Source: an uncultured Pseudomonadota bacterium
Lineage (GTDB): Bacteria > Desulfobacterota > Desulfobulbia > Desulfobulbales > Desulfurivibrionaceae
Assembly: GCA_937868185.1 (NCBI GenBank)
Contig: CALMMG010000169.1
Span: 1-50,474 of the forward strand
Length of the DNA stretch: 50,474 nucleotides
Reading direction: 5' to 3'
The stretch's first letter is position 1; each line of letters begins with the position of its first letter. A program made the position numbers and the translations under genes. Positions 6,711-26,902 of the stretch are shown here, piece by piece. The notes under the pieces are model-generated. The model did no database searches and was not told the DNA's origin. It saw only the letters and a program-made list of their open reading frames with translations.

Positions 6711-8741
6711 TCACGGTTCTGTCTCGCCCTCGCCGCTCACGATGGTCAGCCACAACGGCACCGGGCAGCTAAGTGCCTCGGCCATGGCGCGGAAAAGCTC
6801 CGCCTCGCGGATGGTGATCTTTTCGTCATAGGTGATGCAATCCAGGGCGGCGGCGAGAACCTGTTGTCTGGTCTCGATGGCCGACTGCCCAAGCGTTTTC
6901 AGGGCACCGTCGAATCCCTTGAGCGGACACTCCTGTTCGGGCCGGTAACTGAACAGCTTCATCTCCTTGCCAAAAACCCGCACCGCCTGCATCAGCGATT
7001 TCCGGGCCAGATCTTCATCTCCATGGCCCAAACGGGAGAGCAGGGAGAGCACGCAGGAGATTTCGTCGCTCATCTGGCCTAGGGAACGGGCCGGCGCCAG
7101 GGAGAGTGGTTGCGGGTGGAAGCGTGCCTCCAGCTGCCGCAGCAACACATACCGCAGGGCGTACTCGAACAGATCGATCCTGCCGTCGGCCTGCATGAGC
7201 TGATCAACGATTCCTTTGAACACCTCATACTGGGGTGGGGAAAGACTTTTCAAGGCAGGCAGGGCCAAATCAACCAAGGGCAGCCGTATCTCCGGCAAAA
7301 GCGCCCCCATGGCCGGCAGAAGCCGCTCCAGCTCCTGGTACGATTCCTGATCCGCCTCCTTTTTCAACAGCCCAAGCTGTTTTGCCCGCAGGGTAGAATC
7401 GCCGTCGAGCAGGAGGCCATACACCACCAGCCGGGCCCCAAACCCGTTCCGGACCGCATCTCGAACCGGAAGAGGGATGCTCTCGATCATCTCCCGGGCC
7501 AGACGCAGATGGGCCCCTTCCGGGCTGCGAAGCGCCTCTTTCAGGGGTCGGCCCGCGGCCAGAGAGTGGATAAAGACATTGCGCCCATCATCTCCCGGGA
7601 CGGGAAATGCTCCGGGCACACCACCGGCCTGGCTGGCTGACACCGCATACGAGACAGCCTCTTCCTCCGAGAAAGACACCGCCTCTACCCGCACTGGAAA
7701 ATCCCCCCTGAACTCAGGATCGAGTCGTTGGATTCGAGCCAGCAGGGGAGGATGGGTGGAGAAGAGGTTGAACCAGCTTTCCGTAAGACCATTGCCGAAA
7801 AACATATGGCTGATCTCGGAGGCATGGGCGTCCCGAATCCGCGACCCGGCAGACAAGCCGCCGATCTTCTTGAGCGCCCCCGCAAGCCCCAGAGGATTTC
7901 GGGTGAACTGCACCGCCGAGGCATCCGCAAGAAATTCCCGCTGCCGCGCCACCGCGCTTTTGATAAGCCGGGCGACAAACACCCCGGTATAACCGAAAAT
8001 CAGCAGGACAATACCGATCAGCACCGCATATAATCCCCCGCCGCCCTGACCCTTTCCCGCACTGCGCACTCCCACGCGCTCCGTGGAAAAGGCACTTTTG
8101 AGCAGGATCTCACCCAACAGCCCGATGACCAGGATGCCGTGCAAGAACCCCTGGAGCCGGACATTGATCAGCATGTCGCCGGAAAGGATATGGCTGAACT
8201 CATGGGCGATCACCCCCTGTAGCTCTTCCCGGGTAAGGTACTGCACCGCCCCCCTGGTGACGCCGATCACCGCATCCTCTTGGGAAAAGCCGGCGGCAAA
8301 GGCGTTGATCCCGGATTCCCGGTCCAAGAGATAGACCGTGGGCACCGTGACCCCCGAGGCAATGGCCATCTCCTCGATGATGTTCAGCAACCGCCGTTCG
8401 TGAAAATCGCTGGTGTCCGGATAGATGACCCTCCCGCCCAGGAGCTGGGCGATGAGACTGCCGCCGCCGTTGCGCAACCGGAAGTATTTGTAAACGGTGC
8501 CCGCCAGAATCAGGGCCAGAACCACCATGGCGATCCTGGCCAGAAGGTGGAGATTCCACTGACGGGGGGAAAGGTCGAAAGGAGTCACCGAGACGTAGAG
8601 GCGCCCGGGGTTGAAGGTGGTCAGCACATAGAGGAAGACCGAGACCAGAGCGACCACCACCGCCACCGCCGTAGCAAAATAGAGCATCAGCCAGAAGGTC
8701 TTCCGACGGGCGGTATGCTGTTGTTCAAAAAAATCCCGCAT
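6711..8741 (-). CDS. Large membrane M48 metallopeptidase (HtpX-like) with TerB-like C-terminal region
   Basis: A 676-residue protease. Two TM helices at about 18-41 and 66-84 lead into an M48 domain with zinc motif HEFSH at 180-184 and third ligand E269 in QREFLADASAV; two more hydrophobic segments lie at about 200-216 and 237-258. The C-terminal ~300 residues are soluble and helical and contain patterns such as DGRIDLFEYAL and ITYDEKITIREAELFRA that resemble TerB-like modules. HtpX itself is about 290 residues, so this is the long version. It is 17 bases downstream of lemA, a pairing seen in many bacteria and suggestive of an envelope quality-control unit. Confidence 0.88.
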   Translation of the reverse strand: MRDFFEQQHTARRKTFWLMLYFATAVAVVVALVSVFLYVLTTFNPGRLYVSVTPFDLSPRQWNLHLLARIAMVVLALILAGTVYKYFRLRNGGGSLIAQLLGGRVIYPDTSDFHERRLLNIIEEMAIASGVTVPTVYLLDRESGINAFAAGFSQEDAVIGVTRGAVQYLTREELQGVIAHEFSHILSGDMLINVRLQGFLHGILVIGLLGEILLKSAFSTERVGVRSAGKGQGGGGLYAVLIGIVLLIFGYTGVFVARLIKSAVARQREFLADASAVQFTRNPLGLAGALKKIGGLSAGSRIRDAHASEISHMFFGNGLTESWFNLFSTHPPLLARIQRLDPEFRGDFPVRVEAVSFSEEEAVSYAVSASQAGGVPGAFPVPGDDGRNVFIHSLAAGRPLKEALRSPEGAHLRLAREMIESIPLPVRDAVRNGFGARLVVYGLLLDGDSTLRAKQLGLLKKEADQESYQELERLLPAMGALLPEIRLPLVDLALPALKSLSPPQYEVFKGIVDQLMQADGRIDLFEYALRYVLLRQLEARFHPQPLSLAPARSLGQMSDEISCVLSLLSRLGHGDEDLARKSLMQAVRVFGKEMKLFSYRPEQECPLKGFDGALKTLGQSAIETRQQVLAAALDCITYDEKITIREAELFRAMAEALSCPVPLWLTIVSGEGETEP

Positions 8742-13076: not shown

Positions 13077-13751
13077 ATGACGACTGGCACTTCACAGACC
13101 AAGACAACACCGATCCGCACATGGCTCTTTGCGGTGTTCGCGGTTCTGCTCCTCTTCTGCCTGCCTTGTGGCAAGGCCTCCGGTGCGGACTATGAAGAGT
13201 ATGAGATCAAGGCTGGCTTTCTCTACAATTTTTTCAATTTCATCAAGTGGCCGGACCGCTCTTTTAACTCCCCCCAAAGTCCTTTTATCCTGATTATTGT
13301 CGGCAGCGGGGGCAAGGAACAAACCGTTGAACATGCCTTACAGAACAGCTTTGTCGGTACCCGGCCCCTGAAAATTATCACCACCAACTCCACCGAGGAT
13401 CTTGGCAAGGCACACATGGTTTTTTTCCTGGAATCCTATAAAAATTCCGACCTGCCGAAGGTGTTGGCCCAGCTCAAGGGAAAACCGGTGATCACCGTGG
13501 GTGAGGAAAAAAACTTTATCACCCTGGGCGGCGATATCAACTTTGTGCAAAGGGGGACGAAGATTAAGTTTCAGATCAGCCCGGCCTCAACAGAAAAAGG
13601 GGATCTCAAAATCAGCTCCCGGCTCCTCATGCTGGCCGTGGCTCCTGAGCAATCGGCCATCGAGTACGACAGGCCCATCCGCGCCACAGCCCCCAGCACC
13701 AGAGCCTCGGACCTGACCCAGGAAACGACAAGGGAACATGGAATACTTTAA
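13077..13751 (+). CDS. YfiR family periplasmic protein (DUF4154)
   Basis: A 224-residue secreted protein: signal peptide at about 15-36 (hydrophobic core [15 protein letters not shown]), then the YfiR domain starting [19 protein letters not shown] and containing [15 protein letters not shown] and a late [18 protein letters not shown] motif with SSRLLMLA. In Pseudomonas YfiR is a periplasmic repressor of the YfiN diguanylate cyclase. Here its partner is probably the CHASE8 kinase, whose gene overlaps its end by 14 bases. An unstructured tail of about 35 residues follows the domain. It starts ten bases after the TonB receptor with AGGTAAAG as binding site. Confidence 0.88.
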
Positions 13752-16101
13752 CACGCTTCCCATTAGAAAAAAGCTCCTGCTGATAATCATGCTCGTTACC
13801 GGCGGGGTGCTGCTTTTTGTCAACAGCGTCATGTGCACCTACGATTTTTTTACCTTAAGGAATCTCCTGGTAAAAAACCTGGCCGTACTGACCAAAGCCG
13901 TTGCCGAAAACGCAACATCCACCGTGGTTTTTTCCGATCAGGAGGCTGCCACGGAAACGCTGCTGGCGCTGCGCGCCGAACCATGCATCCAGTATGCCGC
14001 CATCCTCACCCCGGACCGACGGGTTTTTGCCACCTATAATAATAACAAGACGATGACCAAGGGTGGGTTTCAGCCACCGACCATCCCCGTCAATACGCCG
14101 GTTTTTGGAAACGATTCCATCGATTACCTCACGGAGATAAAGCTCCAGGGAAAAACAGTGGGGATGGTCTTTGCCCGTTCCGATCGCCATGAAGAACCAC
14201 TTCTACTCAAGCGGTATTTCCTGGTCGCCCTCTTGGTCATGGGAATAACCTTTTTTCTCGTCTGGCTTATCACCTCGAAATTGCAGCGGATTTTCACCCG
14301 ACCCATTGAACAGCTTGCCGCAACCATTCGCGGAGTGACGCGGGATCAGGATTATTCCTTGCGAGCCTCGGTGAAAACCAAGGACGAAATCGGCGCGCTG
14401 ACCATGGGCTTTAATGAAATGCTCAATGAAATTGAACTCCGGGATCAGGCACTCACTCAGGCACACAGCAGCCTTGAAAAGAAGGTCGAGGAGCGGACCC
14501 GAGATCTTGTTTTGGCCAAGGAGGCAGCGGAGGCGGCAAGCCGGGCAAAATCAGAATTTCTCGCCAACATGAGCCATGAGATCCGCACCCCCATGAACGG
14601 GGTTATCGGCATGACCCAGCTGGCCCTGCTCACCGACCTGACCGCAGAACAACGGGATTTTCTCGAAACCATCGACCTTTCAGCCAACCGGCTGATCCAG
14701 GTCATTAACGATATCCTTGATTTTTCCAAGATCGAGGCGCACAAGCTGGACATCACCTCCAGCGACTTCAATCTTCGGGAAGCCGTCGAGGATACCACCC
14801 AGGAACTGGCAGTCCGGGCGCACGAGAAAAACCTGGAGCTGGTGTGCCATATCGAACCGGATGTTCCGGAATTTCTCATTGGCGACTCCTTTCGCCTCCA
14901 GCAGATTTTGACCAATCTCCTGGGAAACAGCATTAAATTCACCGAATCCGGCCAGATCTTCCTCAAGGTACAGCGCAAAGGGGAGTACGATGAAGCCGTT
15001 GAACTGTTGTTTTCCGTCTCCGACAATGGCATCGGCATCCCCGAAGACCAACAGCAAAAGATTTTTGACGCCTTCAGTCAGGTGGACAGCACCATGGCCA
15101 GAAAATTTGGCGGCACCGGCCTGGGGCTTTCCATCTCTTCCCGCCTTGTCCATCTCATGGGCGGCCGCATCTGGCTGGAAAGCACACCCAATGTCGGCTC
15201 CACCTTTTTCTTCACCATCCTCTGCCAAAAACAATCCGGAGAAAAAATCATCCCGCAAGCCTCTCCGGCCTTTTTGGAAGGAAAATCCGTTTTGGTGGTG
15301 GACGACAACCCCATCAACCAAAAAATACTGCTCCAGAAGCTTGCGCAGTTAGCCATGCAGGCAGAGGCTGTTTCCGGCGGCGCCGAAGCGCTGAAGGTGT
15401 TACAGGAACATCTTGCTAAAAAAACCCCCTTTGCTCTAGCCATTATCGACATCCAGATGCCGGACATGGACGGCTTCACCCTGATTGAAAAAATCCGCCA
15501 ACACTCTGGGCTAACCCAGCTGCCGGTGATCATTCTCACCTCCGCAGGTCTGCCGGAAGACAAAGAAAGAAGCAAGACCCTCGGAGTGCACGCCTATTTG
15601 CTCAAACCCTGTCGGCAAAAAGATCTACTCAAGAGTATCTCCACCGTTTTTGTGCAACCGAAATTGCCCGGTCCTCCCTCCGCAGCACCTCCAGCCGCGG
15701 AAAAAAAAGAGAAACTTCACATCCTTCTGGCGGAAGATAATCTGGTGAACCAAAAAGTGGCAAAAGGTTTGCTTGAAAGAGAAGGGCACTCTGTGGTGAT
15801 CGCCAATAACGGCCGGGAAGCCGTGGAACATTACGGGTCTGAACATTTTGACCTGATCCTGATGGATGTACAGATGCCGGAAATGGACGGCTTTGAGGCC
15901 ACCGAAAAAGTCCGCGCCCAGGAACAGGGAACGGCCCAACACATCCCGATCATCGCCCTAACGGCCCATGCTATGAAGGGCTATAGCGAAAAATGCCTGG
16001 CCGCTGGCATGGACGGATATGTCTCAAAGCCCTTCACCATCAAAACTCTCGTGGAGCGGTTAGACTCCCTTTCTTTTCCCAAGCTCGGGGATAACACCTA
16101 A
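13738..16101 (+). CDS. CHASE8-HAMP hybrid histidine kinase with two receiver domains
   Basis: A 787-residue BarA-like sensor. TM helices at about 13-32 and 161-180 flank a periplasmic CHASE8-type sensor; then a HAMP domain (about 181-235), a coiled coil, HisKA with phospho-accepting H280 in [12 protein letters not shown], HATPase (about 385-505; N box, [15 protein letters not shown]), and two receivers with phospho-acceptors D571 ([11 protein letters not shown]) and D710 ([11 protein letters not shown]). No HPt domain is present, so an external phosphotransfer protein is expected. It is the third gene of the TonB receptor-YfiR operon and overlaps yfiR by 14 bases. YfiR probably gates the periplasmic domain; that is inference from the arrangement. 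Confidence 0.92.
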
Positions 16102-16213: not shown

Positions 16214-18598
16214 ATGAGCGAAACGCCCCCCCTCCACCAAGCAACCAGCCCCCTTCCTCTCTCCGGCGATATCCTTGAAATCGTCACCGGAAATATCGGG
16301 GCAGGGCTCGCCGTCATCTCCCGCGACTTTACCATCCTCTGGGCCAATAAGGTCATGGAGGATCTCTATGGCAACACCCAGGGCAAGACCTGCTACCGCA
16401 CCTTTCAAGAACAGGAATGCGTCTGCCCAGGATGCGGAGTCCGGGCGGTTTTTGAACAGGGGTTGGAGCGGGTGGTCCAAGAGGTGGTAAGCCCCGACAA
16501 AAGCGGCAATCTTCTCGAGTTAGAGATCGTCGCCACCCCAATCCGGGATGCGCAGGGAAATATTACCGCAGCCCTGGAGCTGGTCCTGCCAATAACCGAG
16601 CGGAAACAGCAGGAAAAGATTCTGGCCGAGCTGCTCGCCTTCTCGCAAAGCCTGACCAGCACCGTTGACCTGAACAGTCTGTACCGGAAAGTCACCAGCC
16701 TTTCCTGCGAATTGCTGAACCTTGATTTCTCCACCCTGATGCTGATGAGCGATGACCAGAGCGCTCTGGTTATCAGGGACACCCTGGGGTTTCCGGAGCA
16801 GACCATCGGCCATTATGCCCTGCTCAAGGGTCAGGGCCTCTCCACCCATGTGGTGCTTGAAAAAAAGCCTGCGGTCGTGGTGGATTTCCAGACGGAAACC
16901 CGGTTTGAGATTCCTTCCCTGGTGGTTGAAAAGAATATCCGTTCCGCCCTCTGCGTGCCCATGATGCTGGGCGAGAACGTCTTCGGGGTGCTGATCGGCC
17001 ATACCCTGCAGCCTCGGGTTTTCAGCGAAGCAACAGTCCATATCTATCAGAGCTTTGCCAACCAGGCGGCAGTGGCGATCAAGAACGCCATACACATGCA
17101 CTCCCTGCACGCCTCGGAAAAAAAATTCCGCACCCTGTTCGACAGCACCAACGATGCCATCCTGATCTATTCCCTGGATTGCCGCCTCCTCGAGGTGAAC
17201 CGGGCAACCTGCGAGCGGTTGAACTACTCCCGGGAAGAACTCCTCGCCTTACCATTTATGCAGCTCGTTGCCTCCCCGTATGCCTCCCTGGCAAAAAACC
17301 GCATCGAGCAACTGAAAAAGGACGGCACGGCCATCTTCGAGTCCGCCCATCTCAAGAAAGATGGCGCTATTGTTCCCATTGAACAGAGTTGCAGTCTGAT
17401 TGAGTACGACACACAACCGGCAATCCTCTGTATCTCCCGCGATATCTCCGAACGGAAACGGCTTGACGAGGAACGCCTCCGAAGCCAAAAACTCGAATCC
17501 CTCGGGGTCTTGGCCGGGGGCATTGCCCACGACTTCAACAATCTGCTCACCGGCATCCTCGGTAACCTTTCCCTGGCCAAGACAAACCTGCCGGAAACAG
17601 GACCGGTTGCAGAACAGTTGGCCGAAACGGAAAAAGCCACCCTCCGGGCTAGGGAGCTGACCCAGCAGCTGCTCACCTTTGCCAAGGGCGGAGCACCCAT
17701 CAAGACAGAGGCCGCCCTGGCCGGGCTCATCCAGGATACCGCCGGTTTTTCCGTCCGCGGAACCAAGGCCGTATGCACATACGATTGTGCAGAGGATCTC
17801 TGGCTGGCCGAGGTGGATAGAGGACAGTTGGGCCAGGTTCTGCAAAACCTGGTGATCAACGCGGTCCATGCCATGCCCGAGGGCGGCATCATCCAGCTTG
17901 GCGCCGGCAACATTACCGTCAACCCCGATGAACTGCCACTAAGGCCGGGGAAATATGTGCTGATCACCGTCCAGGACCATGGCCAAGGCATCCCACCGGA
18001 GCATCTGGCAAAGATCTTTGATCCCTATTTCACCACCAAGCAGAGCGGCAGCGGCCTGGGGCTGGCGGTGGTCTATTCTATTATTGCCAACCATGCGGGC
18101 CACATCACCGTAGAGTCGGAACTGGGCAAGGGCACTCTCTTTTCCATCTATCTTCCCGCGACCGGGAAAAGTCCCCTGGCAAAAAAGCCCGTTTCGGCAA
18201 CGACCGCTCTTGCCAAAGGGCAGGGCAAGGTCCTGATCATGGACGACGAAGAACTCATCCGCAATGTTTCCTCCGCCATGCTCAAACAGCTGGGGTATGA
18301 ACCCCACACCGCCAATAACGGCGAAGAGGCCATTACTCTTTACCTGCACGCGCAACAAGAGGGGCATCCCTTTGACCTGGTGATCATGGATCTCACCGTG
18401 CCCGGCGGCATGGGAGGCAAGGAGGCCATTGGACACCTCCGCCAGCTCGACCCCCAGATAAAGGCGGTGGTCTCCAGTGGATATGCCAACGATCCGATCA
18501 TGGCCAACTTCAGCGAATACGGCTTTTGCGGGGTTGCCCCCAAGCCCTTCAGCCTCCAGGATCTCTCTATATTATTACAAATGATTTTAGCTGGTTAG
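16214..18598 (+). CDS. Soluble PAS-GAF-PAS histidine kinase with C-terminal receiver
   Basis: A 794-residue kinase without TM helices. PAS at about 18-135, including a cysteine-rich insert (CYRTFQEQECVCPGCG); GAF at about 150-295; second PAS at about 300-415; HisKA with H439 in GGIAHDFNNLLTGI; HATPase with DHGQGIPPEH and GSGLGLAVV; receiver with acceptor D726 (IMDLTVPGGMGG). The H box belongs to the NtrB-like HDFNN class. The cysteines in the first PAS could hold a metal or Fe-S centre. It follows the CHASE8 kinase but has a gap with its own likely promoter. No response regulator with an output domain is adjacent. Confidence 0.9.
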   Translation: MSETPPLHQATSPLPLSGDILEIVTGNIGAGLAVISRDFTILWANKVMEDLYGNTQGKTCYRTFQEQECVCPGCGVRAVFEQGLERVVQEVVSPDKSGNLLELEIVATPIRDAQGNITAALELVLPITERKQQEKILAELLAFSQSLTSTVDLNSLYRKVTSLSCELLNLDFSTLMLMSDDQSALVIRDTLGFPEQTIGHYALLKGQGLSTHVVLEKKPAVVVDFQTETRFEIPSLVVEKNIRSALCVPMMLGENVFGVLIGHTLQPRVFSEATVHIYQSFANQAAVAIKNAIHMHSLHASEKKFRTLFDSTNDAILIYSLDCRLLEVNRATCERLNYSREELLALPFMQLVASPYASLAKNRIEQLKKDGTAIFESAHLKKDGAIVPIEQSCSLIEYDTQPAILCISRDISERKRLDEERLRSQKLESLGVLAGGIAHDFNNLLTGILGNLSLAKTNLPETGPVAEQLAETEKATLRARELTQQLLTFAKGGAPIKTEAALAGLIQDTAGFSVRGTKAVCTYDCAEDLWLAEVDRGQLGQVLQNLVINAVHAMPEGGIIQLGAGNITVNPDELPLRPGKYVLITVQDHGQGIPPEHLAKIFDPYFTTKQSGSGLGLAVVYSIIANHAGHITVESELGKGTLFSIYLPATGKSPLAKKPVSATTALAKGQGKVLIMDDEELIRNVSSAMLKQLGYEPHTANNGEEAITLYLHAQQEGHPFDLVIMDLTVPGGMGGKEAIGHLRQLDPQIKAVVSSGYANDPIMANFSEYGFCGVAPKPFSLQDLSILLQMILAG

Positions 18599-18708
18599 GC
18601 GTGTCCCTCCACCCCTCCTCACGCCGCCAACACCACCGCCACTCCACAGCCAACAAAAAATAACGCAAAAACAGTAAGTTAAAAAAAACAGCCCCCCTAT
18701 TTTTTTTC

Positions 18709-18737
18709 TTGACACTTTTCTGCGCAATAGGCATAAA
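18709..18737 (+). promoter_or_regulatory. Sigma-70 promoter of the kamA operon
   Basis: A perfect -35 TTGACA (18709-18714), the ideal 17-base spacer and CATAAA (18732-18737). The predicted start near 18744 gives a leader of about 100 bases. This is one of the best housekeeping promoters in the window. Confidence 0.6.
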
Positions 18738-18753
18738 CTGGTTCAGTCAAGTA

Positions 18754-18779
18754 CGCTGACCCGCTTGCGGCTATCAGCG
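18754..18779 (+). other. Hairpin in the kamA leader
   Basis: CGCTGA (18754-18759) pairs with TCAGCG (18774-18779), and inside them CCGC pairs with GCGG across a TT loop. It lies only ten bases from the predicted transcript start and about 65 bases before the kamA ATG. There is no T-tract, so it is more likely a 5' stabiliser or a target of leader control than a terminator. Confidence 0.4.
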
Positions 18780-18843
18780 GTATCATTTTGAAATTATTTG
18801 TTTTTTCTTCGGGTTCTACCGCTAACCAGCAAGGAGAAGCACA

Positions 18844-20061
18844 ATGCAGCAAAAGGTTGTCCATCTTGAGGAGCAAGAGGAACCTCCAGGGTGTTGCCCC
18901 AGCCCTGCCTTTCCATTTCCCGGCCAAGCCCCCTCCCTCACCTTCCGCCAACGCCATTTCCCCTCCGTTACAGATGATGACTGGCACGATTGGCACTGGC
19001 AGCTTCGCAACCGCATCACCAGTCTCAAAAAACTCGGCAAGCTCATAGACCTCTCAGACAGCGAGCGGCAGGCCATGGCCTTTAATGGCGCCACTCTGCC
19101 CCTGGCCATTACCCCCTATTACGCCAGCCTCATTTCCCCTGACGACCCGAAGCAGCCGCTGCGGCGCACCATGGTGCCGGTGGTCAACGAGCTCCTGGTT
19201 TCCCAGGGCGAGGAACACGATCCCCTGGGCGAAGACAATCACTCCCCAGTACCCGGTCTGATACACCGATATCCCGACCGGGTCCTCTTCCTGGTCACCG
19301 ACTACTGTTCGAGCTACTGCCGTTACTGCACCCGCTCCCGGATGGTTGGCCGGCGCAAGAGCCACAGCCCGGCCCGCTGGCAAAAAGCCATCGCCTACAT
19401 CGCAAACAACCCGGCGATCCGCGACGTGCTTCTTTCCGGCGGTGATCCGCTAACCATGGGTGACGAACAGTTGGACTGGCTGCTCACCCGTCTGCGCCAG
19501 ATTCCCCATGTGGAGATGATCCGCATCGGCACCAAGGCGCCCATGGTGCTGCCCCAGCGCATCACGCCAGAGCTGGTCACCATGCTCAAAAAACATCACC
19601 CGCTCTGGATGAGCATTCACTGCACCCACCCCGACGAACTGACCCCGGAAGCGGCCAAGGCCTGCGCCATGCTCGCCGACGGTGGGATCCCCCTGGGCAG
19701 TCAGACCGTGCTCCTCTCCGGGATCAACGATTCGGTGGAAACCATGCGACAACTCATGCACGGGCTGGTAAAGATCCGGGTCAAGCCCTATTACCTGTAC
19801 CAGTGCGATCCCATCATCGGCTCGGCCCATTTCCGCACCCCGGTTTCCAAAGGACTGGAAATCTATCAGGGTCTGCGCGGCCATACCACCGGCTATGCCG
19901 TGCCCAACTATGTGATCGACGCCCCCGGCGGCGGCGGCAAGATTCCGCTCATCCCGGAAACCGTGGTCGGCCGCGAGGGCAACGATCTCCTGATCCGGAA
20001 CTACGAAGGCAAGGTTTACCGCTACCCCGACCTGATCGGCGCGGCAAACCGAGCAAGCTGA
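18844..20061 (+). CDS. kamA: KamA-family lysine 2,3-aminomutase (radical SAM, PLP)
   Basis: A 405-residue radical SAM enzyme that should shift the alpha-amino group of lysine to give beta-lysine. Cluster motif C155-x3-C159-x2-C162 (CSSYCRYC) and the PLP lysine K366 in DAPGGGGK are present. By alignment to clostridial lysine 2,3-aminomutase, the carboxylate-binding Arg is R164 and the two Asp that hold the substrate epsilon-amino group are D322 (YQCD) and D359 (IDAP); glutamate 2,3-aminomutases lack these, so lysine is the likelier substrate. The ATG follows AAGGAG. It heads a five-gene operon with two ATP-grasp ligases, a GNAT and a GNAT-HDAC fusion. EpmB of the EF-P pathway is a shorter relative, but no epmA or efp is nearby. 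Confidence 0.92.
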   Translation: MQQKVVHLEEQEEPPGCCPSPAFPFPGQAPSLTFRQRHFPSVTDDDWHDWHWQLRNRITSLKKLGKLIDLSDSERQAMAFNGATLPLAITPYYASLISPDDPKQPLRRTMVPVVNELLVSQGEEHDPLGEDNHSPVPGLIHRYPDRVLFLVTDYCSSYCRYCTRSRMVGRRKSHSPARWQKAIAYIANNPAIRDVLLSGGDPLTMGDEQLDWLLTRLRQIPHVEMIRIGTKAPMVLPQRITPELVTMLKKHHPLWMSIHCTHPDELTPEAAKACAMLADGGIPLGSQTVLLSGINDSVETMRQLMHGLVKIRVKPYYLYQCDPIIGSAHFRTPVSKGLEIYQGLRGHTTGYAVPNYVIDAPGGGGKIPLIPETVVGREGNDLLIRNYEGKVYRYPDLIGAANRAS

Positions 20062-20076
20062 AGACAAAGGAAATTT

Positions 20077-21060
20077 ATGCTGATCGGGATGACCTACGAC
20101 CTGCGAAGCGATTATCTGGCCGCAGGCTACGGGGAAGAGGAAACCGCCGAGTTTGACCGGGAATCGACCATCAAGGCCATTGACACCGCCCTGCGGGCTA
20201 TGGGCCACGAAACAGTGCCCATCGGCAATTTCATGGGCCTGATGCCCCGGCTTCTTGCCGGTGAGCGCTGGGATCTGGTCTTTAATATCTGCGAAGGACT
20301 CTACGGCTTTGGCCGCGAAGCCCTGGTCCCCGCCCTGTTGGAGGCGCACCGGATTCCCTATGTCTTTTCCGACCCCCTGGTCCTGGGGCTAACCCTGCAC
20401 AAGGGCATGAGCAAACACGTGGTGCGGGATCTCGGTATCCCCACCCCAGCCTTTGCCGTGGTGAAATCCATGGCGGATGTAACCGAGGTGGCGCTGCCCT
20501 ATCCGGTTTTTGCCAAACCGGTGGCCGAGGGCACCGGCAAGGGCGTGACCCCGGCCTCCAAGATCAGCACTGCCGAAGAGTTGCACGTGGTCTGCGCCGA
20601 TCTTTTGCAAACCTTCCACCAGCCGGTGCTGGTGGAATCCTACCTGCCGGGAAGGGAGTTCACCGTGGGCATCGTGGGCAACGGCAAGGGTGCCCGGAGC
20701 ATAGGCGTCATGGAGGTGGTCCTTTTACCCAACTCCGAGCCGGAGGTCTATTCGTACCACAATAAGGAGTTCTGCGAGGAGATGGTGGAATACCGCAAGG
20801 TGGACGATGCCGAGGCCAGACAGGCAGAGGCAACCGCCTTAGACGCCTGGCACGCCCTGGACTGCCGGGACGGCGGCCGGGTCGACCTGCGCTCCGACGC
20901 CAACGGCATCCCCAACTTCATCGAGGTCAACCCCCTGGCCGGGCTGCATCCCGAGCATTCCGACCTCTGCATCATCGCCGGAAAATACAACATCTCCTAT
21001 CAGACCCTGCTCAGCGAAATCGTGGCGGCCGCCATTAGCCGGCTCGGGCTTGCGGGATGA
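20077..21060 (+). CDS. D-Ala-D-Ala-ligase-like ATP-grasp ligase 1
   Basis: A 327-residue ATP-grasp enzyme that should form an amide bond through an acyl-phosphate. Motifs: VFNICEG at 68-74, the ATP-binding strand FAKPVAEGTGKGV (K147), a hinge region VLVESYLPGREFTVG, and the metal-binding end RVDLRSD...FIEVNPLAGLHPEHSD (268-296). Ddl proper has a GEDG motif and a serine/tyrosine set that are not obvious here, so the substrate probably differs from D-alanine. AAAGGA precedes the ATG; the gene starts 15 bases after kamA and its stop overlaps the next start by four bases (ATGA). In this operon one of its substrates may be beta-lysine; that is inference. Confidence 0.85.
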   Translation: MLIGMTYDLRSDYLAAGYGEEETAEFDRESTIKAIDTALRAMGHETVPIGNFMGLMPRLLAGERWDLVFNICEGLYGFGREALVPALLEAHRIPYVFSDPLVLGLTLHKGMSKHVVRDLGIPTPAFAVVKSMADVTEVALPYPVFAKPVAEGTGKGVTPASKISTAEELHVVCADLLQTFHQPVLVESYLPGREFTVGIVGNGKGARSIGVMEVVLLPNSEPEVYSYHNKEFCEEMVEYRKVDDAEARQAEATALDAWHALDCRDGGRVDLRSDANGIPNFIEVNPLAGLHPEHSDLCIIAGKYNISYQTLLSEIVAAAISRLGLAG

Positions 21061-22058
21061 AACACCTAAAAGTCGGCATCATCCACAACCAACCGATCCC
21101 CAAAGGCGAACCAAACTGGGAATCTTCCGCCGATGTCCTGGCCCAGGTGGAGGCTATCGAGGGTGCGCTCAACGAACTGGGCCACCCCCATGTGTGCATC
21201 CCCTTTACCCGCGATCTGGGTCATTTTGTCAGCCAGGTCCAGGCAGCGGAGATCACAACAGCCTTCAACCTCTGCGAGTCGGTGGATGAAGACCCGCTTC
21301 TCATCGGCCATCCGGCTGCAGTCCTTGAGCTGCTGTCCATTCCCTTTACCGGCTCCTCGGCCATGGCGCTGCTTCTCTCCACAGACAAACTCACGGTCAA
21401 AAGGCTGCTCACCGCCTCCGGCCTCCGCACCCCACCCTTCTTTATCTACGAAGGCTCCGAGGTGCTGCGCCCCGCCGGACTCAACTTTCCGGTAATCCTC
21501 AAGCCCCGCTTCCAAGACGCCTCCATCGGCATCGAACAAGAATCGGTGGTCGCAAGCAGCACCGAGCTTCTGCCCCGGCTGGAAGAGCTGTACGCCCGGT
21601 ATGGTGCCATCCTGGTGGAGGAGTATATCGTTGGCCGGGAGTTCAACGTCTCGCTCTTCGGCTATCCTAAAGCCCAGGTCATGCCCCTGGCAGAGATCGA
21701 TTTTTCCGGCTTTCCCAGCGAGCTGCACCGGATCGTCAGCTACAAGGCCAAATGGGACGAAGATTCCTTCGAGTACCACCACACCCAGCGGATTTTTCCG
21801 ACCAACCTGCCCGCGCCTTTGCAACAGGCCATGCGCCACATGGCCCAGGACTGCTTTACTCTTTTCGGCCTGCGCGACTACGCCAGGGTTGACCTGCGCC
21901 TCGATCAGCAGGGACGCCTGGCCATTCTTGAAATCAACGCCAATCCCTGTCTCAGCCCGGATGCCGGTTTTCCCGCCGCCGTGGCCCAAAGCAGGATGAC
22001 CTACACCGAAATGGTCGGGGAGTTCCTCCGGCTCGTTTCCTTAAGGGCCGCTCTATGA
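21057..22058 (+). CDS. D-Ala-D-Ala-ligase-like ATP-grasp ligase 2
   Basis: A 333-residue second ATP-grasp ligase, clearly related to but diverged from the preceding one. Motifs: FNLCES at 70-75, VILKPRFQDASIGI (146-159) for ATP binding, ILVEEYIVGREFNV (185-198) and RVDLRLD...LEINANPCLSPDAG (277-304). The FNLCES/SVDEDP region replaces the hG-EDG pattern of true Ddl. The gene overlaps both neighbours by ATGA, which implies translational coupling and fixed stoichiometry. Having two tandem ligases suggests two successive amide bonds, or one heterodimeric ligase. I cannot assign substrates. Confidence 0.85.
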   Translation: MKHLKVGIIHNQPIPKGEPNWESSADVLAQVEAIEGALNELGHPHVCIPFTRDLGHFVSQVQAAEITTAFNLCESVDEDPLLIGHPAAVLELLSIPFTGSSAMALLLSTDKLTVKRLLTASGLRTPPFFIYEGSEVLRPAGLNFPVILKPRFQDASIGIEQESVVASSTELLPRLEELYARYGAILVEEYIVGREFNVSLFGYPKAQVMPLAEIDFSGFPSELHRIVSYKAKWDEDSFEYHHTQRIFPTNLPAPLQQAMRHMAQDCFTLFGLRDYARVDLRLDQQGRLAILEINANPCLSPDAGFPAAVAQSRMTYTEMVGEFLRLVSLRAAL

Positions 22059-22528
22059 TCGCCATCCGACCCATTGCAGCCCAGGACCGCGCCCAACTCC
22101 TCCAACTGGTGGAGAAACAGGCTAACTTCAATGCCCAGGAGGTGGAGGTGGCCATTGAGGTCATCGACGACACCCTGGACCCGGCAAAAAACGATTACTG
22201 CATCCTCGTGGCAGTACACGAGGACCAGGAGGTGGTGGGTTTTATCTGCTACGGGGATATCCCCATGACCGAACGCCGCTTCGATCTGTACTGGGTGGCG
22301 GTGGATCCAGCCTTGGGCAGGCAAGGGATAGGTCGACTCCTCCTTGCCCGGATGGAGGCGGAACTGAGCGCCCAGGGGTCGGCCAAGGTTTACGTGGACA
22401 CCTCCTCCACCCCGGGCTATGATTCGGCCCGCGGTTTTTATGAAAAAAACGGCTATCAGGTGGCCTGCGTTCTCCATGATTTTTACCGGGACGGCGACGA
22501 CAAGGTGATCTACCTCAAGGAGTTCTAA
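22055..22528 (+). CDS. GNAT N-acetyltransferase
   Basis: A 157-residue single-domain GNAT. The acetyl-CoA motif A reads VAVDPALGRQGIGRLLL, followed by a typical late strand SARGFYEKNGYQV. It overlaps ATP-grasp ligase 2 by four bases. AblB, the known beta-lysine acetyltransferase of methanogens, is distinctly longer, so this is not an obvious AblB, but the beta-lysine context makes acetylation of beta-lysine or of its peptide the first hypothesis. Substrate unknown. Confidence 0.88.
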   Translation: MIAIRPIAAQDRAQLLQLVEKQANFNAQEVEVAIEVIDDTLDPAKNDYCILVAVHEDQEVVGFICYGDIPMTERRFDLYWVAVDPALGRQGIGRLLLARMEAELSAQGSAKVYVDTSSTPGYDSARGFYEKNGYQVACVLHDFYRDGDDKVIYLKEF

Positions 22529-22530
22529 CC

Positions 22531-24279
22531 ATGTTTCGTATCCGCCGGATCTACGACGACACCCTGACCATCGATCGGGAAACCATCGACCAGGTGCAGC
22601 AGATCCTGCGCAGCCAGTTCTCGGCGCTATCGGAAAGTGAGATCCGCAGTCTGGCCCAGAAACTTTCCAACCCCTTAAAATACCGCTTCCGCACCATCCT
22701 CTTCGTTGCCGATGATATGAAGCCCCGGGTCAAGGGGTTTGCCCTGCTCAACCATGCCCCGGATCTTTCCTTCTGCTTTCTCGACTTCATCTCCGTGGAC
22801 CCGAAAGCTGCGGCCGGTGGCATCGGCGGCGCCCTGTACGCACGGGTCCGGGAGGAGGCCCGCTCCCTCGGCGATGAGGGGATCTTCATGGAATGCCTGC
22901 CCGATGAGGTGAAGATCTGTAGCGAACCGGCCACGGTGAAGCAAAGCCGGGCCCGCCTCCGTTTCTACGAGCGCTACGGCGCCTTGCCCATCATCAATAC
23001 CGCCTACGAAACACCGCTCAAGCCGGAGTACGATTGCCCGCCCTATCTGGTCTACGACGATCTTGGCACCGGCAAGCCCCTTGCCAGGGAGAGGGTCCGC
23101 GAGGTGGTCCGCGCCATCCTCATCCGCAAATACGGCAAGGATTGTCCCAAAGGCTATATCGACATGGTGGTGGAATCCTTCCGCGATGATCCGGTGCTGC
23201 GCCGCCCGCCACGCTATATCAAGAAAGAGCCGATCAAGGTGCATCCCGTCAAGTCCCTGGAAAAATTGATCGCCCTCATCGTCAACGAAAAGCACGATAT
23301 CCACCATATCCGCGAGCGGGGCTACGTCGAAGCGCCGGTGCGCATTGCCTCCATCCTCAAGGGGATCGAGCCCACCGGGTTGTTCGAGCGGTTGCCGGCC
23401 CGCCATTTCTCCGAGCGGCACATCAAAAAGGTCCATGACCCAAAATTTGTCGACTACCTCAATCAGGTCTGCACCACCCTTGAGCCCGGCAAATCGGTGT
23501 ACCCCTACGTCTTCCCCATCCGCAACGCGGCCAGACCGCCCAAGGATCTGCCGGTACGGGCCGGCTACTACTGCATCGATACCTTCACTCCCCTAAACCA
23601 CAACGCCTACAAGGCAGCCAAGGGCGCGGTGGACTGCGCCCTGACTGCGGCCCAGCTCCTGGAGAAGGGCTACCGCCTGGCCTATGCCCTGGTCCGCCCG
23701 CCGGGCCACCATGCTGAAAGCCGGGTTTTCGGCGGCTTCTGTTATTTCAATTCGGCCGCCATCGCCGCCAATTATCTCAGTCGCGAGGGCAGGGTGGCAG
23801 TGCTTGACATCGATTACCACCACGGCAACGGCACCCAGGATATTTTTTATCAGCGCAATGATGTGTTGACCCTTTCGATCCACGGTCATCCCAGCTTTGC
23901 CTATCCTTATTTTTCCGGCTTCAGTGACGAGGTGGGGGAGGGGGCAGGCAAGGGATGGAACCGCAACTATCCTCTGCCGGAAGAGCTGGACGAAGCAGGC
24001 TACCGGCCGGTGCTTGCCAAGGCTCTCAAGCGGATCCGCGCCTTTAAGCCGCATTTTCTCGTGGTGGCGCTGGGACTTGATCCGGCAAAAAATGACCCGA
24101 CCGGCACCTGGTTGCTTTCGGCCGCGGATTTCGAGGAAAACGGTCGGATGCTCGGCAGCCTGCGGTTACCCACGCTGATCGTGCAGGAGGGCGGCTACCG
24201 GACCCGCTCACTGGGCACCAATGCCCGCCATTTCTTCTTGGGGCTCTGGGATGGCATGCACGAAAACAATCGCACCTGA
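22531..24279 (+). CDS. GNAT-histone-deacetylase-family fusion protein
   Basis: A 582-residue two-domain protein. Residues about 1-175 are GNAT-like (FLDFISVDPKAAAGGIGGALY, RLRFYERYGA). A linker of about 60 residues leads to a class II HDAC/acetylpolyamine-amidohydrolase domain (about 240-578). Its catalytic set is complete: tandem H393-H394 in RPPGHHAES, zinc ligands D428 and H430 in DIDYHHGNG, third ligand D517 in LGLDPAKNDP, and Y556 in EGGY. So an acetyl-transfer fold and a deacetylase are joined in one chain. AAGGAG precedes the ATG, two bases after the GNAT stop. It ends the operon, facing ahpC across a strong hairpin. The likely substrate is an acetylated amine made by this operon. Confidence 0.88.
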   Translation: MFRIRRIYDDTLTIDRETIDQVQQILRSQFSALSESEIRSLAQKLSNPLKYRFRTILFVADDMKPRVKGFALLNHAPDLSFCFLDFISVDPKAAAGGIGGALYARVREEARSLGDEGIFMECLPDEVKICSEPATVKQSRARLRFYERYGALPIINTAYETPLKPEYDCPPYLVYDDLGTGKPLARERVREVVRAILIRKYGKDCPKGYIDMVVESFRDDPVLRRPPRYIKKEPIKVHPVKSLEKLIALIVNEKHDIHHIRERGYVEAPVRIASILKGIEPTGLFERLPARHFSERHIKKVHDPKFVDYLNQVCTTLEPGKSVYPYVFPIRNAARPPKDLPVRAGYYCIDTFTPLNHNAYKAAKGAVDCALTAAQLLEKGYRLAYALVRPPGHHAESRVFGGFCYFNSAAIAANYLSREGRVAVLDIDYHHGNGTQDIFYQRNDVLTLSIHGHPSFAYPYFSGFSDEVGEGAGKGWNRNYPLPEELDEAGYRPVLAKALKRIRAFKPHFLVVALGLDPAKNDPTGTWLLSAADFEENGRMLGSLRLPTLIVQEGGYRTRSLGTNARHFFLGLWDGMHENNRT

Positions 24280-24292
24280 ACCCCGGAAAAAA

Positions 24293-24330
24293 GAAGGCCC
24301 CTTTTCCAGGGAGGGGGAAAAGGGGCCTTC
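24293..24330 (-). terminator. Strong terminator between the kamA operon and ahpC
   Basis: A perfect 15-bp inverted repeat (24293-24307 with 24316-24330, GAAGGCCCC...) around an eight-base loop. On the minus strand it is followed by CTTTTTT, so it is a good Rho-independent terminator for ahpC. On the plus strand it is followed by nine G residues instead, so for the kamA operon it can act only as a weak or factor-aided end. Confidence 0.85.
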
Positions 24331-24357
24331 AGGGGGGGGGAGGAGAGAGAAAAAAAA

Positions 24358-24969
24358 TTACTTCAGGGCTTCATATACATGCCCAACCAGTTTCGGTCCG
24401 GGGGTCAGGGTCTTGTCGCCGGCTTCCCAGCGCGCCGGGCAGGCCTCGGCGGGATGGGCCGCTACATAGACGCTGGCTTTTAGTTTACGCAACAGCTCCT
24501 TGGCACTGCGGCCGACGTTGTAAAAATTCACCTCAGAGGCGACCAATTTGCCCTCGGGGCTGATGATAAAGGTGCCGCGCAGGGCCAGGCCGGTACCGTA
24601 GTCATAAACGCCAAACAACTTGGCCACCGCACCGGTGGGGTCCGCCGCCATGGGGTATTTGGCATTTTCCAGGAATTTCTCCTCCCGCCGCCAGGCGAGA
24701 TGGGTGTAAACGGTATCGCTGCTCACCGTGATCACTTCGGCGCCAGCCGCCTTGATTTCCGCATATTCGTCAGCCAGATCGCCCAGTTCGGTGGAGCAAA
24801 CAAAGGTGAAATCCGCCGGATAGAAAACCAGCACGGTCCACTTGCCTTCTTTTTTCAACTGCGCCAGGGAAACCGTGCCAAAACTGTAATCCGTCGGCTC
24901 ATAGGTTTCCATGGTGAAATCCGGAACATTCTGACCAACCTGCAGGCCGCTGCAACAATTTTCAGCCAT
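24358..24969 (-). CDS. ahpC: 2-Cys peroxiredoxin (AhpC type)
   Basis: A 203-residue typical 2-Cys peroxiredoxin that reduces hydrogen peroxide and organic hydroperoxides. Peroxidatic C58 is in PADFTFVCSTE and resolving C177 in AEACPARW. There is an extra CC at residues 5-6. No AhpF is adjacent; thioredoxin is the probable reductant. A Fur/PerR-like palindrome overlaps the predicted promoter, so peroxide- or iron-dependent repression is likely. Confidence 0.95.
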   Translation of the reverse strand: MAENCCSGLQVGQNVPDFTMETYEPTDYSFGTVSLAQLKKEGKWTVLVFYPADFTFVCSTELGDLADEYAEIKAAGAEVITVSSDTVYTHLAWRREEKFLENAKYPMAADPTGAVAKLFGVYDYGTGLALRGTFIISPEGKLVASEVNFYNVGRSAKELLRKLKASVYVAAHPAEACPARWEAGDKTLTPGPKLVGHVYEALK

Positions 24970-25015
24970 GATATATCTCCATCGTAAGGGGTAAGCAAAA
25001 AAATCATCTCATGTT

Positions 25016-25050
25016 TGATAACAATTATCACTTAGAAAAATTAATGTCAA
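25016..25050 (-). promoter_or_regulatory. ahpC promoter overlapped by a Fur/PerR-like box
   Basis: The minus strand has TTGACA (25050-25045) as -35 and TAATTG or ATAATT about 16-17 bases on as -10. The palindrome TGATAACAATTATCA (25016-25030) covers that -10. It fits the 7-1-7 layout of Fur-family boxes with one mismatch between arms. It lies about 47 bases before the ahpC start. Confidence 0.6.
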
Positions 25051-25168
25051 ACCATTTTTATCCTGTTTGAACAAAATTACAAAATTCGCTTATATTTTAA
25101 TATGTTAGATAAAAATAAAAATGCAGCACAGCCCAAAATCACCGTTCTGGGCGGATAAAAACCTTGTA

Positions 25169-25201
25169 CTTTTCCGTTCTTCACGGTCTATCACGGAAAA
25201 G
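25169..25201. repeat. Perfect 9-bp inverted repeat before aroK
   Basis: CTTTTCCGT (25169-25177) and ACGGAAAAG (25193-25201) with a 15-base spacer. There is no T-tract after either arm. It lies in the ahpC-aroK divergent region and could be an operator or a hairpin; no factor can be named. Confidence 0.4.
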
Positions 25202-25216
25202 AAAGAGAGGCCACGC

Positions 25217-25246
25217 TTGACACCCCCCCTCTCTTTCCCGTAAATT
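25217..25246 (+). promoter_or_regulatory. aroK promoter, probably giving a leaderless mRNA
   Basis: A perfect -35 TTGACA (25217-25222), 18 bases, then TAAATT (25241-25246). The aroK ATG begins seven bases after the -10, where transcription would be expected to start, and no ribosome binding site precedes it. Confidence 0.45.
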
Positions 25247-25252
25247 CTCTAT

Positions 25253-25837
25253 ATGTTCACTCCACGGAGAAAAATAATCCTGACCGGCTATCGCGCCACT
25301 GGCAAGACCATGGTGGGGTTGATGCTGGCCCAGCACCTGAACCTCGATTTCATCGACATGGACGAGATGCTCGAGGCCCGGGCAGGGCAGTCCATCCGTA
25401 AAATCGTCGCCCAACAAGGCTGGGGGCAGTTCCGCCTCCTTGAGCGCGACCTGCTGGCCGAAATGATCTGCCGCAAGGACGTGGTTATTTCCACCGGCGG
25501 CGGGGCAATCCTCCATCAGGATATCTGGAATCTCCTGCGGCAGACCGGCCTTACCGTTTGGCTCACAGCGGATATCGATACCATCTGCCGCAGGCTCTCC
25601 GAAGACGCAAACAGCGCCAGCCAGCGGCCAACGCTCACCGACTCGGACATCTATGCCGAGGTGGCCCAGGTGCTGGCCGAGCGGGAGCCACTTTACAAAA
25701 AAGGGTCGCAACTCACCGTGGACACCAGCAACAAAACCGCGGGAGAAATTGTGCATATTATTGAAAAGGCCTTGGGAGACGACGAGTTTTTGCGCACCGT
25801 CGAAGCCTCGCTCCCCAAAGACCCCATATTCTGTTAG
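25253..25837 (+). CDS. aroK: Shikimate kinase
   Basis: A 194-residue P-loop kinase that phosphorylates shikimate at the 3-hydroxyl in aromatic amino-acid synthesis. Walker A is GYRATGKT at 12-19, DMDE at about 38-41 and the shikimate-binding STGGGA at about 82-87; the family pattern RPTL follows in the lid. A ~20-residue C-terminal tail extends past the usual end. No ribosome binding site is visible and the promoter suggests a leaderless transcript. Nine bases later comes aroC, the enzyme two steps further on, so the two form an operon. Confidence 0.93.
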   Translation: MFTPRRKIILTGYRATGKTMVGLMLAQHLNLDFIDMDEMLEARAGQSIRKIVAQQGWGQFRLLERDLLAEMICRKDVVISTGGGAILHQDIWNLLRQTGLTVWLTADIDTICRRLSEDANSASQRPTLTDSDIYAEVAQVLAEREPLYKKGSQLTVDTSNKTAGEIVHIIEKALGDDEFLRTVEASLPKDPIFC

Positions 25838-25846
25838 GTGCTGACA

Positions 25847-26902
25847 ATGGCAGGAAATACCTTTGGCTCTGTTTTTCGCGTAACCACCTGGGGCGAATCC
25901 CATGGCACCGCGGTGGGCGCCACCCTGGATGGCTGCCCTCCCGGTCTGCCGCTCACCGCCTTGGATATCCAGGCGGAGTTGGACCGGAGGCGGCCCGGCA
26001 AGGGAGGGCCTGCAGCCAGCCCGAGAAAAGAACCGGACGCAGTGGAGATCCTTTCCGGTGTCTTTGAAGGGAAAACCACCGGCACCCCCATTGCCCTGGC
26101 CATCTTCAACAAGGATGCCCACAGCAAATCCTACGACAAGCTCAAGGATATCTTCCGCCCTGGGCATGGCGACATCACTTATCTGGCGAAGTACGGCCTC
26201 CGCGATCACCGGGGCGGCGGCCGAGCCTCGGCTCGGGAAACCGCGGGAAGGGTGGCGGCCGGGGCCGTGGCAAAAAAACTCCTCTCCCGACACGGCATCA
26301 CGGTTATTGCTTACACCGTGGCCCTGGGTGAGATCTCCACCGCCAAACGCCATCTGGCCGAAATCAAGGACAATCCGCTGTTCTGCCCGGACAACGAGGC
26401 CGCAGCCAGGATGATCAACCATATCGAGGCGGTGCGCCTAGAGGGCGACACCCTGGGCGGCATTGTCGAGATTCTGGCCACCGGCTGCCCGGCAGGTCTT
26501 GGCGAACCGGTATTCGAAAAGCTCGACGCTGCCCTGGCCGGCGCACTGATGTCCATCGGCGCGGTCAAGGGAGTAGAGATCGGCGCCGGTTTTGCTGCCG
26601 CCGGTATGCGGGGTTCGCAGAACAACGACATCATCCTGCCCGACGGCTTTGCCACCAACAACGCAGGCGGGATTTTGGCCGGAATCTCTAACGGCGATGC
26701 CATCGTGACCCGGGTTGCGGTCAAGCCCATCCCCTCCATCAGCAAGGAACAACAGACCATCAACCTGGCCCACGAGCCGGTTCGGGTCAGCATCGGCGGG
26801 AGGCACGATATCTCCGCCATCCCCAGGATCATCCCGGTCTGCGAGGCCATGGTGGCCCTGACCCTGGCCGACCATCTGCTCCGGCAGAAGGCCATCGAGT
26901 AA
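25847..26902 (+). CDS. aroC: Chorismate synthase
   Basis: A 351-residue chorismate synthase that removes phosphate from EPSP to give chorismate and needs reduced FMN. Signatures: GNTFGSVFRVTTWGESHG at the N-terminus, HGDITYLAKYGLRDHRGGGRASARET, AAGMRGSQNNDI and NNAGGILAGISNG. I chose the ATG at 25847 (MAGNTFGS); an in-frame GTG nine bases earlier touches the aroK stop and is less likely. It completes the aroK-aroC pair; the other shikimate genes are elsewhere. Confidence 0.96.
   Translation: MAGNTFGSVFRVTTWGESHGTAVGATLDGCPPGLPLTALDIQAELDRRRPGKGGPAASPRKEPDAVEILSGVFEGKTTGTPIALAIFNKDAHSKSYDKLKDIFRPGHGDITYLAKYGLRDHRGGGRASARETAGRVAAGAVAKKLLSRHGITVIAYTVALGEISTAKRHLAEIKDNPLFCPDNEAAARMINHIEAVRLEGDTLGGIVEILATGCPAGLGEPVFEKLDAALAGALMSIGAVKGVEIGAGFAAAGMRGSQNNDIILPDGFATNNAGGILAGISNGDAIVTRVAVKPIPSISKEQQTINLAHEPVRVSIGGRHDISAIPRIIPVCEAMVALTLADHLLRQKAIE

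Follow-up and report, generated by a model that had tools for sequence, protein, structure and literature searches.

A conserved gene set pairing a lysine 2,3-aminomutase-type enzyme with two ATP-grasp ligases and enzymes of acetylation and deacetylation

The five-gene locus described here, found in a 50,474-nt stretch of DNA from an uncultured bacterium (contig CALMMG010000169.1; the whole stretch is called the window, and positions are given on its + strand numbering), recalls several known systems. It shares with the N-epsilon-acetyl-beta-lysine system (AblA/AblB) a lysine 2,3-aminomutase-type enzyme followed by a GNAT-family acetyltransferase, the former carrying the specificity residues of lysine 2,3-aminomutases (LAM). 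It differs by the addition of two ligases and a deacetylase. The N-acetylglutaminylglutamine amide system consists of asnO and ngg, the latter encoding a GNAT with an ATP-grasp domain. The same logic of acetyltransferase and ATP-grasp ligase is seen here, and GNAT-ligase fusions occur as well, but an aminomutase replaces the asparagine synthetase-like enzyme and there are two ligases of the Ddl type. In the pyrrolysine pathway, the radical SAM enzyme PylB rearranges lysine and the ATP-grasp ligase PylC makes an amide; the logic of radical SAM enzyme and amide ligase is the same, while the enzyme families are others and the acetylation genes are extra in the present locus.

The locus comprises five ORFs (open reading frames) on the same strand, with gaps of 15, -4, -4 and 2 bases, a layout that an earlier note on this DNA had described correctly. 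Its features are as follows.

18844-20061, + strand: kamA, a lysine 2,3-aminomutase-type radical SAM enzyme (405 aa; LAM_C and Radical_SAM matches)
20077-21060, + strand: LigA, a Ddl-fold ATP-grasp ligase (327 aa; Dala_Dala_lig_C, 86 bits)
21057-22058, + strand: LigB, a second Ddl-type ATP-grasp ligase (333 aa; Dala_Dala_lig_C, 90 bits)
22055-22528, + strand: GNAT N-acetyltransferase (157 aa; Acetyltransf_7, 53 bits)
22531-24279, + strand: GNAT-deacetylase fusion (582 aa; Hist_deacetyl, 254 bits; weak N-terminal GNAT match, 22 bits)
24293-24330, - strand: terminator-like hairpin at the boundary between the operon and a convergent peroxiredoxin gene (15 pairs; T-rich tail on the - strand)

The gene set is real and conserved, and no description of it was found in the open-access literature searched. 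On balance, we lean towards reading the five genes as one conserved small-molecule amide pathway built on predicted beta-lysine.

A contig scan with the 582-aa fusion returned at least 588 relatives, of which the best 80 (55-94% identical) were used. In a profile census of these 80 loci, all five families were present at 36, four at 8, three at 4 and two at 4, and the fusion stood alone at 28. By NCBI record-title rank, the 36 complete loci belong to Pseudomonadota (10), Myxococcota (6, under titles reading 'Deltaproteobacteria bacterium'), Thermodesulfobacteriota (6), Planctomycetota (5), Chloroflexota (4), Bacteroidota (2) and Ignavibacteriota (1), with 2 unassigned; many loci come from metagenome-assembled genomes (MAGs), and individual assignments could therefore be in error. 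The order in the window, KamA-LigA-LigB-GNAT-fusion, is accompanied elsewhere by KamA-LigA-LigB-fusion-GNAT, KamA-fusion-LigA-LigB-GNAT and fusion-LigA-LigB-GNAT-KamA. The earlier note had staked its reading on conservation of the neighbourhood, and the set is indeed kept at these 36 of 80 loci. On a tree of the fusion protein, neighbour-bearing and neighbour-less loci are interspersed, with 17 label changes compared with 24 in shuffles.

The missing neighbours mostly lie elsewhere in the same genome. Whole-genome LigA searches covered 29 fusion-only loci, defined by the lack of KamA, LigA and LigB in tblastn, and found LigA for 28 of them at E <= 1e-15, 27 of these at E <= 1e-40; KamA adjoins LigA in 26 of the 27. 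Of the other two genomes, G028 gave only a weak LigA match and a fragment located at a contig end, and G032, a Nitrospiraceae MAG, gave no LigA. At loci L136-L140, KamA was found when larger flanks were taken. Within the window's family (27 genomes), the fusion (E <= 1e-190) occurs in 14 genomes, LigA (E <= 1e-30) in 15 and both in 13. The phylum was sampled by 394 genomes (completeness >= 90%, plus the window's own at 85.75%), with LigA (E <= 1e-40) in 150, the fusion (E <= 1e-100) in 44 and both in 43. The single genome with a fusion and no LigA (G122) has the family and fusion coordinates of the L043 genome, whose LigA breaks at a contig end. KamA (E <= 1e-115) was found in 133 genomes, 121 of which have LigA. 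From these co-occurrence counts, KamA-LigA-LigB form the core of the set and the fusion is accessory (43/150). Together with the synteny in other phyla, this co-occurrence exceeds chance.

The genes are also joined physically. A profile census over loci L034-L140, L144-L203 and L222-L241, where a genome can be represented twice, revealed 12 ORFs where the fusion protein carries an additional GNAT domain and 4 ORFs where LigB is fused to a GNAT. These gene fusions link acetyltransfer, ligation and deacetylation into one pathway. The proposal that the five products act together thus stands on conservation, co-occurrence and gene fusion. Plasmid records gave 167 matches to the fusion, none over >80% of its length, and 530 to LigA, the best listed at 31%; all were <60% identical, and the set is not among these plasmid records.

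KamA was assigned by comparison with families and solved structures. Its best match among 11 NCBIfam families is TIGR03820 (AblA), at 494.2 bits and below the cut-off of 525.4, and it aligns with the solved lysine 2,3-aminomutase 2a5h (CsLAM) at E 3e-142. The residues D322 and D359 of the window enzyme align with D293 and D330 of CsLAM, which we take to be the lysine-specific sites binding the epsilon-amine of lysine. The Asp pair, the CxxxCxxC motif and the lysine for pyridoxal phosphate, all residues of LAM membership, are present, and both Asp recur at 108 of the 109 KamA-matching loci, the exception being a distant 606-aa ORF at L068. Scores lie far below the cut-offs for glutamate and arginine aminomutases. 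These residues support beta-lysine as the probable product, short of proof, in agreement with the lysine-type assignment made earlier.

The enzyme belongs to the same superfamily as EpmB, which serves beta-lysylation of EF-P; its score for that family (TIGR03821) is 261.5 against a cut-off of 369.3, and the ligases of the locus are of another type, in keeping with the distinction from EF-P modification drawn at the outset. The separation from AblA/AblB also held. At E <= 0.001, the AblB family TIGR03827 is not one of the 10 families that the GNAT matches, nor does it match the fusion, for which 0 families were listed. Of 257 genomes, 8 have an AblB above cut-off, with KamA adjoining in 7 of the 8; only one of them (G209) has LigA, at a separate ligase locus. 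The AblB and ligase routes thus occur mostly in different genomes, which is compatible with alternative uses of beta-lysine.

Both ligases share the fold and the ATP-grasp core of Ddl. The predicted model of LigA (predicted local distance difference test, pLDDT, 94.4) finds its best fold matches among D-Ala-D-Ala ligases, with 8evz at the top in Foldseek (E 3e-23), and LigB matches E. coli DdlB (1iov) at E 4e-36, its Ddl fold resting on this profile. However, both are far below the NCBIfam Ddl cut-offs (LigA 134.6 and LigB 127.7, compared with 243, among the best 25 of 34 and the best 25 of 37 families, respectively). The Ngg family TIGR03103 appears neither among these best matches nor anywhere in the full lists obtained with GNAT and fusion. 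LigA is the more constant ligase, at 52% or more to many other phyla and 34-39% in a second class, while LigB is less constant. At LigA position 296, 102 KamA-linked rows, including the window, have Asp; Cys is found in 14 further KamA-linked rows and in 18 rows linked to a decarboxylase (see below), and one change suffices to explain this Cys296 class on a quick tree. In family f86, a single ORF with two LigA-like domains was also seen at L186, L187 and L248, the first two lying within the profile census above.

The best match of the GNAT family profile is the solved structure 2r7h, 'Putative D-alanine N-acetyltransferase' (E 7e-57), and nothing else is nearly as good; the name was probably copied from a neighbouring ligase annotation. 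The fusion (model pLDDT 86.8) comprises a GNAT domain at ~1-160, a linker and an acetylpolyamine-amidohydrolase-like zinc deacetylase at ~266-572. In the predicted GNAT domain, the GxG of the acetyl-CoA motif is kept in 57/57 aligned relatives, and the usual Arg/Gln is not kept. Sequence and fold both place the deacetylase domain closest to the acetylpolyamine amidohydrolases (APAH), with which it shares the zinc site, and its nearest solved structure is 6phr (E 5e-73). The residues H393, H394, D428, H430, D517 and Y556, whose zinc-binding and catalytic roles we assume from the HDAC superfamily, are invariant in 57/57 relatives. It differs from APAH in its N-terminal GNAT domain, in a conserved linker and in one motif. 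Passages of PMC11532494 give PIS as the motif of bacterial polyamine deacetylases and PEG as that of HDAC10. At the site aligned with PIS, all 57 relatives have P523-T524-G525, which is neither. Because the catalytic residues are invariant and PTG replaces PIS, the deacetylase domain is probably a working amidohydrolase whose substrate differs from ordinary acetylpolyamines. L068 likewise has a full-length fusion; its record bears the title Nanoarchaeota archaeon, which may reflect a binning error.

True AblA/AblB, EF-P beta-lysylation, true Ddl and true APAH were set aside as identities, given the missing TIGR03827 match, the scores under the EpmB and Ddl cut-offs and the lack of PIS.

Two features had escaped the earlier note: the accessory status of the deacetylase, and a second setting of these ligases, beside genes for making putrescine. 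KamA does not lie beside LigA in five families of the phylum (f16, f19, f43, f58 and f94; 20 LigA loci, all fetched). Directly upstream of LigA in 18 of these 20 loci is a pyruvoyl-dependent arginine decarboxylase (PvlArgDC); in the other two, L227 and L229, the contig ends at that point. Of the 20 loci, 13 also contain an agmatinase, and two decarboxylase-type loci that were tested scored above the NCBIfam cut-offs for both agmatinase and decarboxylase. Arginine decarboxylase and agmatinase together form a route to putrescine. In four decarboxylase-linked loci (L174, at 7758-8372, L203, L166 and L202), a methyltransferase gene follows the GNAT; its best NCBIfam match is PmtA, below cut-off.

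This arrangement allows a reading with two parallel products, in which KamA-linked ligases act on beta-lysine only, decarboxylase-linked ligases act on putrescine only and the unlinked KamA serves something else. That KamA and PvlArgDC never share a LigA locus (0/151) speaks for it, as does the placement of unlinked KamA copies near other genes. In family f86, KamA and the arginine decarboxylase occur on one contig, ~3.3 kb apart in L247 and ~10.6 kb in L251. By eye, ORFs resembling orotate phosphoribosyltransferase and OMP decarboxylase often lie near the unlinked KamA genes (L205, L207, L208, L210, L212 and others), and a MerR-like regulator near some. Against two products, all 21 decarboxylase-type genomes searched (the 20 and G204) retain a strong KamA (E <= 1e-134) away from this locus. 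The class-II LigA is moreover the same at positions 231, 296 and 297, with Cys296 in 18/18 decarboxylase-linked loci and also in 14 KamA-linked ones. The lysine-type Asp pair is present in 17 of 18 unlinked KamA loci taken from 17 such genomes; the one without it is a second copy. On the LigA tree, KamA-linked and decarboxylase-linked loci are mixed, requiring at least 3 changes; under a midpoint root, three KamA-linked loci fall within the smallest group that holds the decarboxylase-linked ones (support 85). We regard the two-product reading as unlikely.

In the beta-lysine amide pathway that we favour, KamA would convert lysine to beta-lysine, as its conserved specificity residues suggest, and LigA and LigB would each form an amide bond, so that beta-lysine becomes part of a small amide or isopeptide. 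For the second partner of the ligases, the leading candidate is a diamine, putrescine for example, since one lineage has arginine decarboxylase and agmatinase in place of KamA beside these ligases; the association is observed, and the chemistry is a proposal. The GNAT may then acetylate an amine of the product or of an intermediate, and the optional fusion may remove or reset the acetyl group. As for purpose, the product would most likely resemble N-epsilon-acetyl-beta-lysine in serving as a neutral, protective or compatible solute. Such an osmotic role is a plausible guess by analogy; passages of PMC3543383 predict acetyl-beta-lysine as an osmolyte in Pelobacter. A more specific version, which we put forward tentatively and as doubtful, is that beta-lysine and putrescine both go into one new metabolite class made by the ligase pair, a peptide-bonded polyamine analogue occurring across many bacterial phyla. 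A dedicated acetyltransferase and a polyamine-type deacetylase would then switch the charge of the product.

Several observations weigh against the proposed pathway. The fusion is absent from 107 of the 150 LigA genomes, so deacetylation is not essential, and the GNAT, present in 13 of the 20 decarboxylase-type loci, is absent from the 7 loci of f19. The Fisher p values for co-occurrence (4e-19 for fusion and LigA, 5e-58 for KamA and LigA) are overstated, as related genomes were treated as independent. PvlArgDC is found in 98 of the 150 LigA genomes and also in 89 of the 244 genomes lacking LigA, and so serves other needs too. A search of the window genome for PvlArgDC found none, which cautions against over-reading the putrescine link; an agmatinase above cut-off lies there on another contig, and likewise in 24 of the 27 family genomes, regardless of LigA. 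Passages of PMC9337991 place ablA under Na+ and c-di-AMP riboswitches, whereas no regulatory RNA was found at E <= 1 in window positions 17500-25500, and 59 loci gave only 5 tRNA matches at gathering thresholds. MscS-like genes had 11 matches in 169 loci (six confirmed by Pfam), 5 within 400 bases of a core ORF and 6 further out, and comparing 455 kb of near flank with 799 kb of far flank showed no clear enrichment near the core. The MscS genes within 400 bases that Pfam confirms are L054:2202-3224, L072:10627-13026, L052:7209-8084 and L180:2-1099; the fifth, at L076, is unconfirmed.

The product might instead be an exported peptide natural product, a siderophore or a signal. Sets of ligases and acetyltransferases are common in the making of peptide metabolites, as is known of these families, and the distribution of the set is patchy. 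However, crude clustering of neighbours, based on crude ORF calling, found no transporter, regulator or additional tailoring gene that recurs, and no extra gene common to many loci except response-regulator/kinase-like ORFs; the wide spread over phyla would suggest a housekeeping or stress role. We consider export improbable. Highly improbable is a macromolecular target (peptidoglycan, lipid or protein acylation, with the deacetylase acting on protein): Ddl-like ligases and HDAC-like enzymes have such targets elsewhere, and a passage of PMC11532494 reports that PsApaH also deacetylates lysine peptides, but both ligases fall below every Ddl cut-off, KamA falls below that of EpmB, and a GNAT fused to ligase and to deacetylase would point to one small substrate.

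The small-molecule reading given in the earlier note is supported in part: joint action, a lysine-type KamA and distinctness from AblA/AblB have held up, while the single promoter has not. The hexamer TTGACA is present at 18709, but without a consensus pair there, and a sigma-70-type consensus scan of 18550-24450 yielded 2 sites, compared with 2.0 expected (shuffled mean), neither upstream of kamA. Directly upstream of the operon lie two hybrid histidine kinases, at 13738-16101 and 16214-18598 (+), the second with PAS and GAF domains. The convergent gene downstream encodes an AhpC-type peroxiredoxin (24358-24969, -) and is followed by those for shikimate kinase (25253-25837, +) and chorismate synthase (25838-26902, +).

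If the beta-lysine amide pathway is correct, an unrecognised route from lysine to an amide metabolite would be present in a third of the sampled genomes of the phylum (LigA in 150/394) and in several other phyla. It would join the chemistry of beta-lysine, known from an osmolyte and from EF-P modification, with that of polyamines. It would also explain the orphan solved structure 2r7h, whose name is a guess, and bacterial HDAC-like enzymes would gain a concrete small-molecule substrate.

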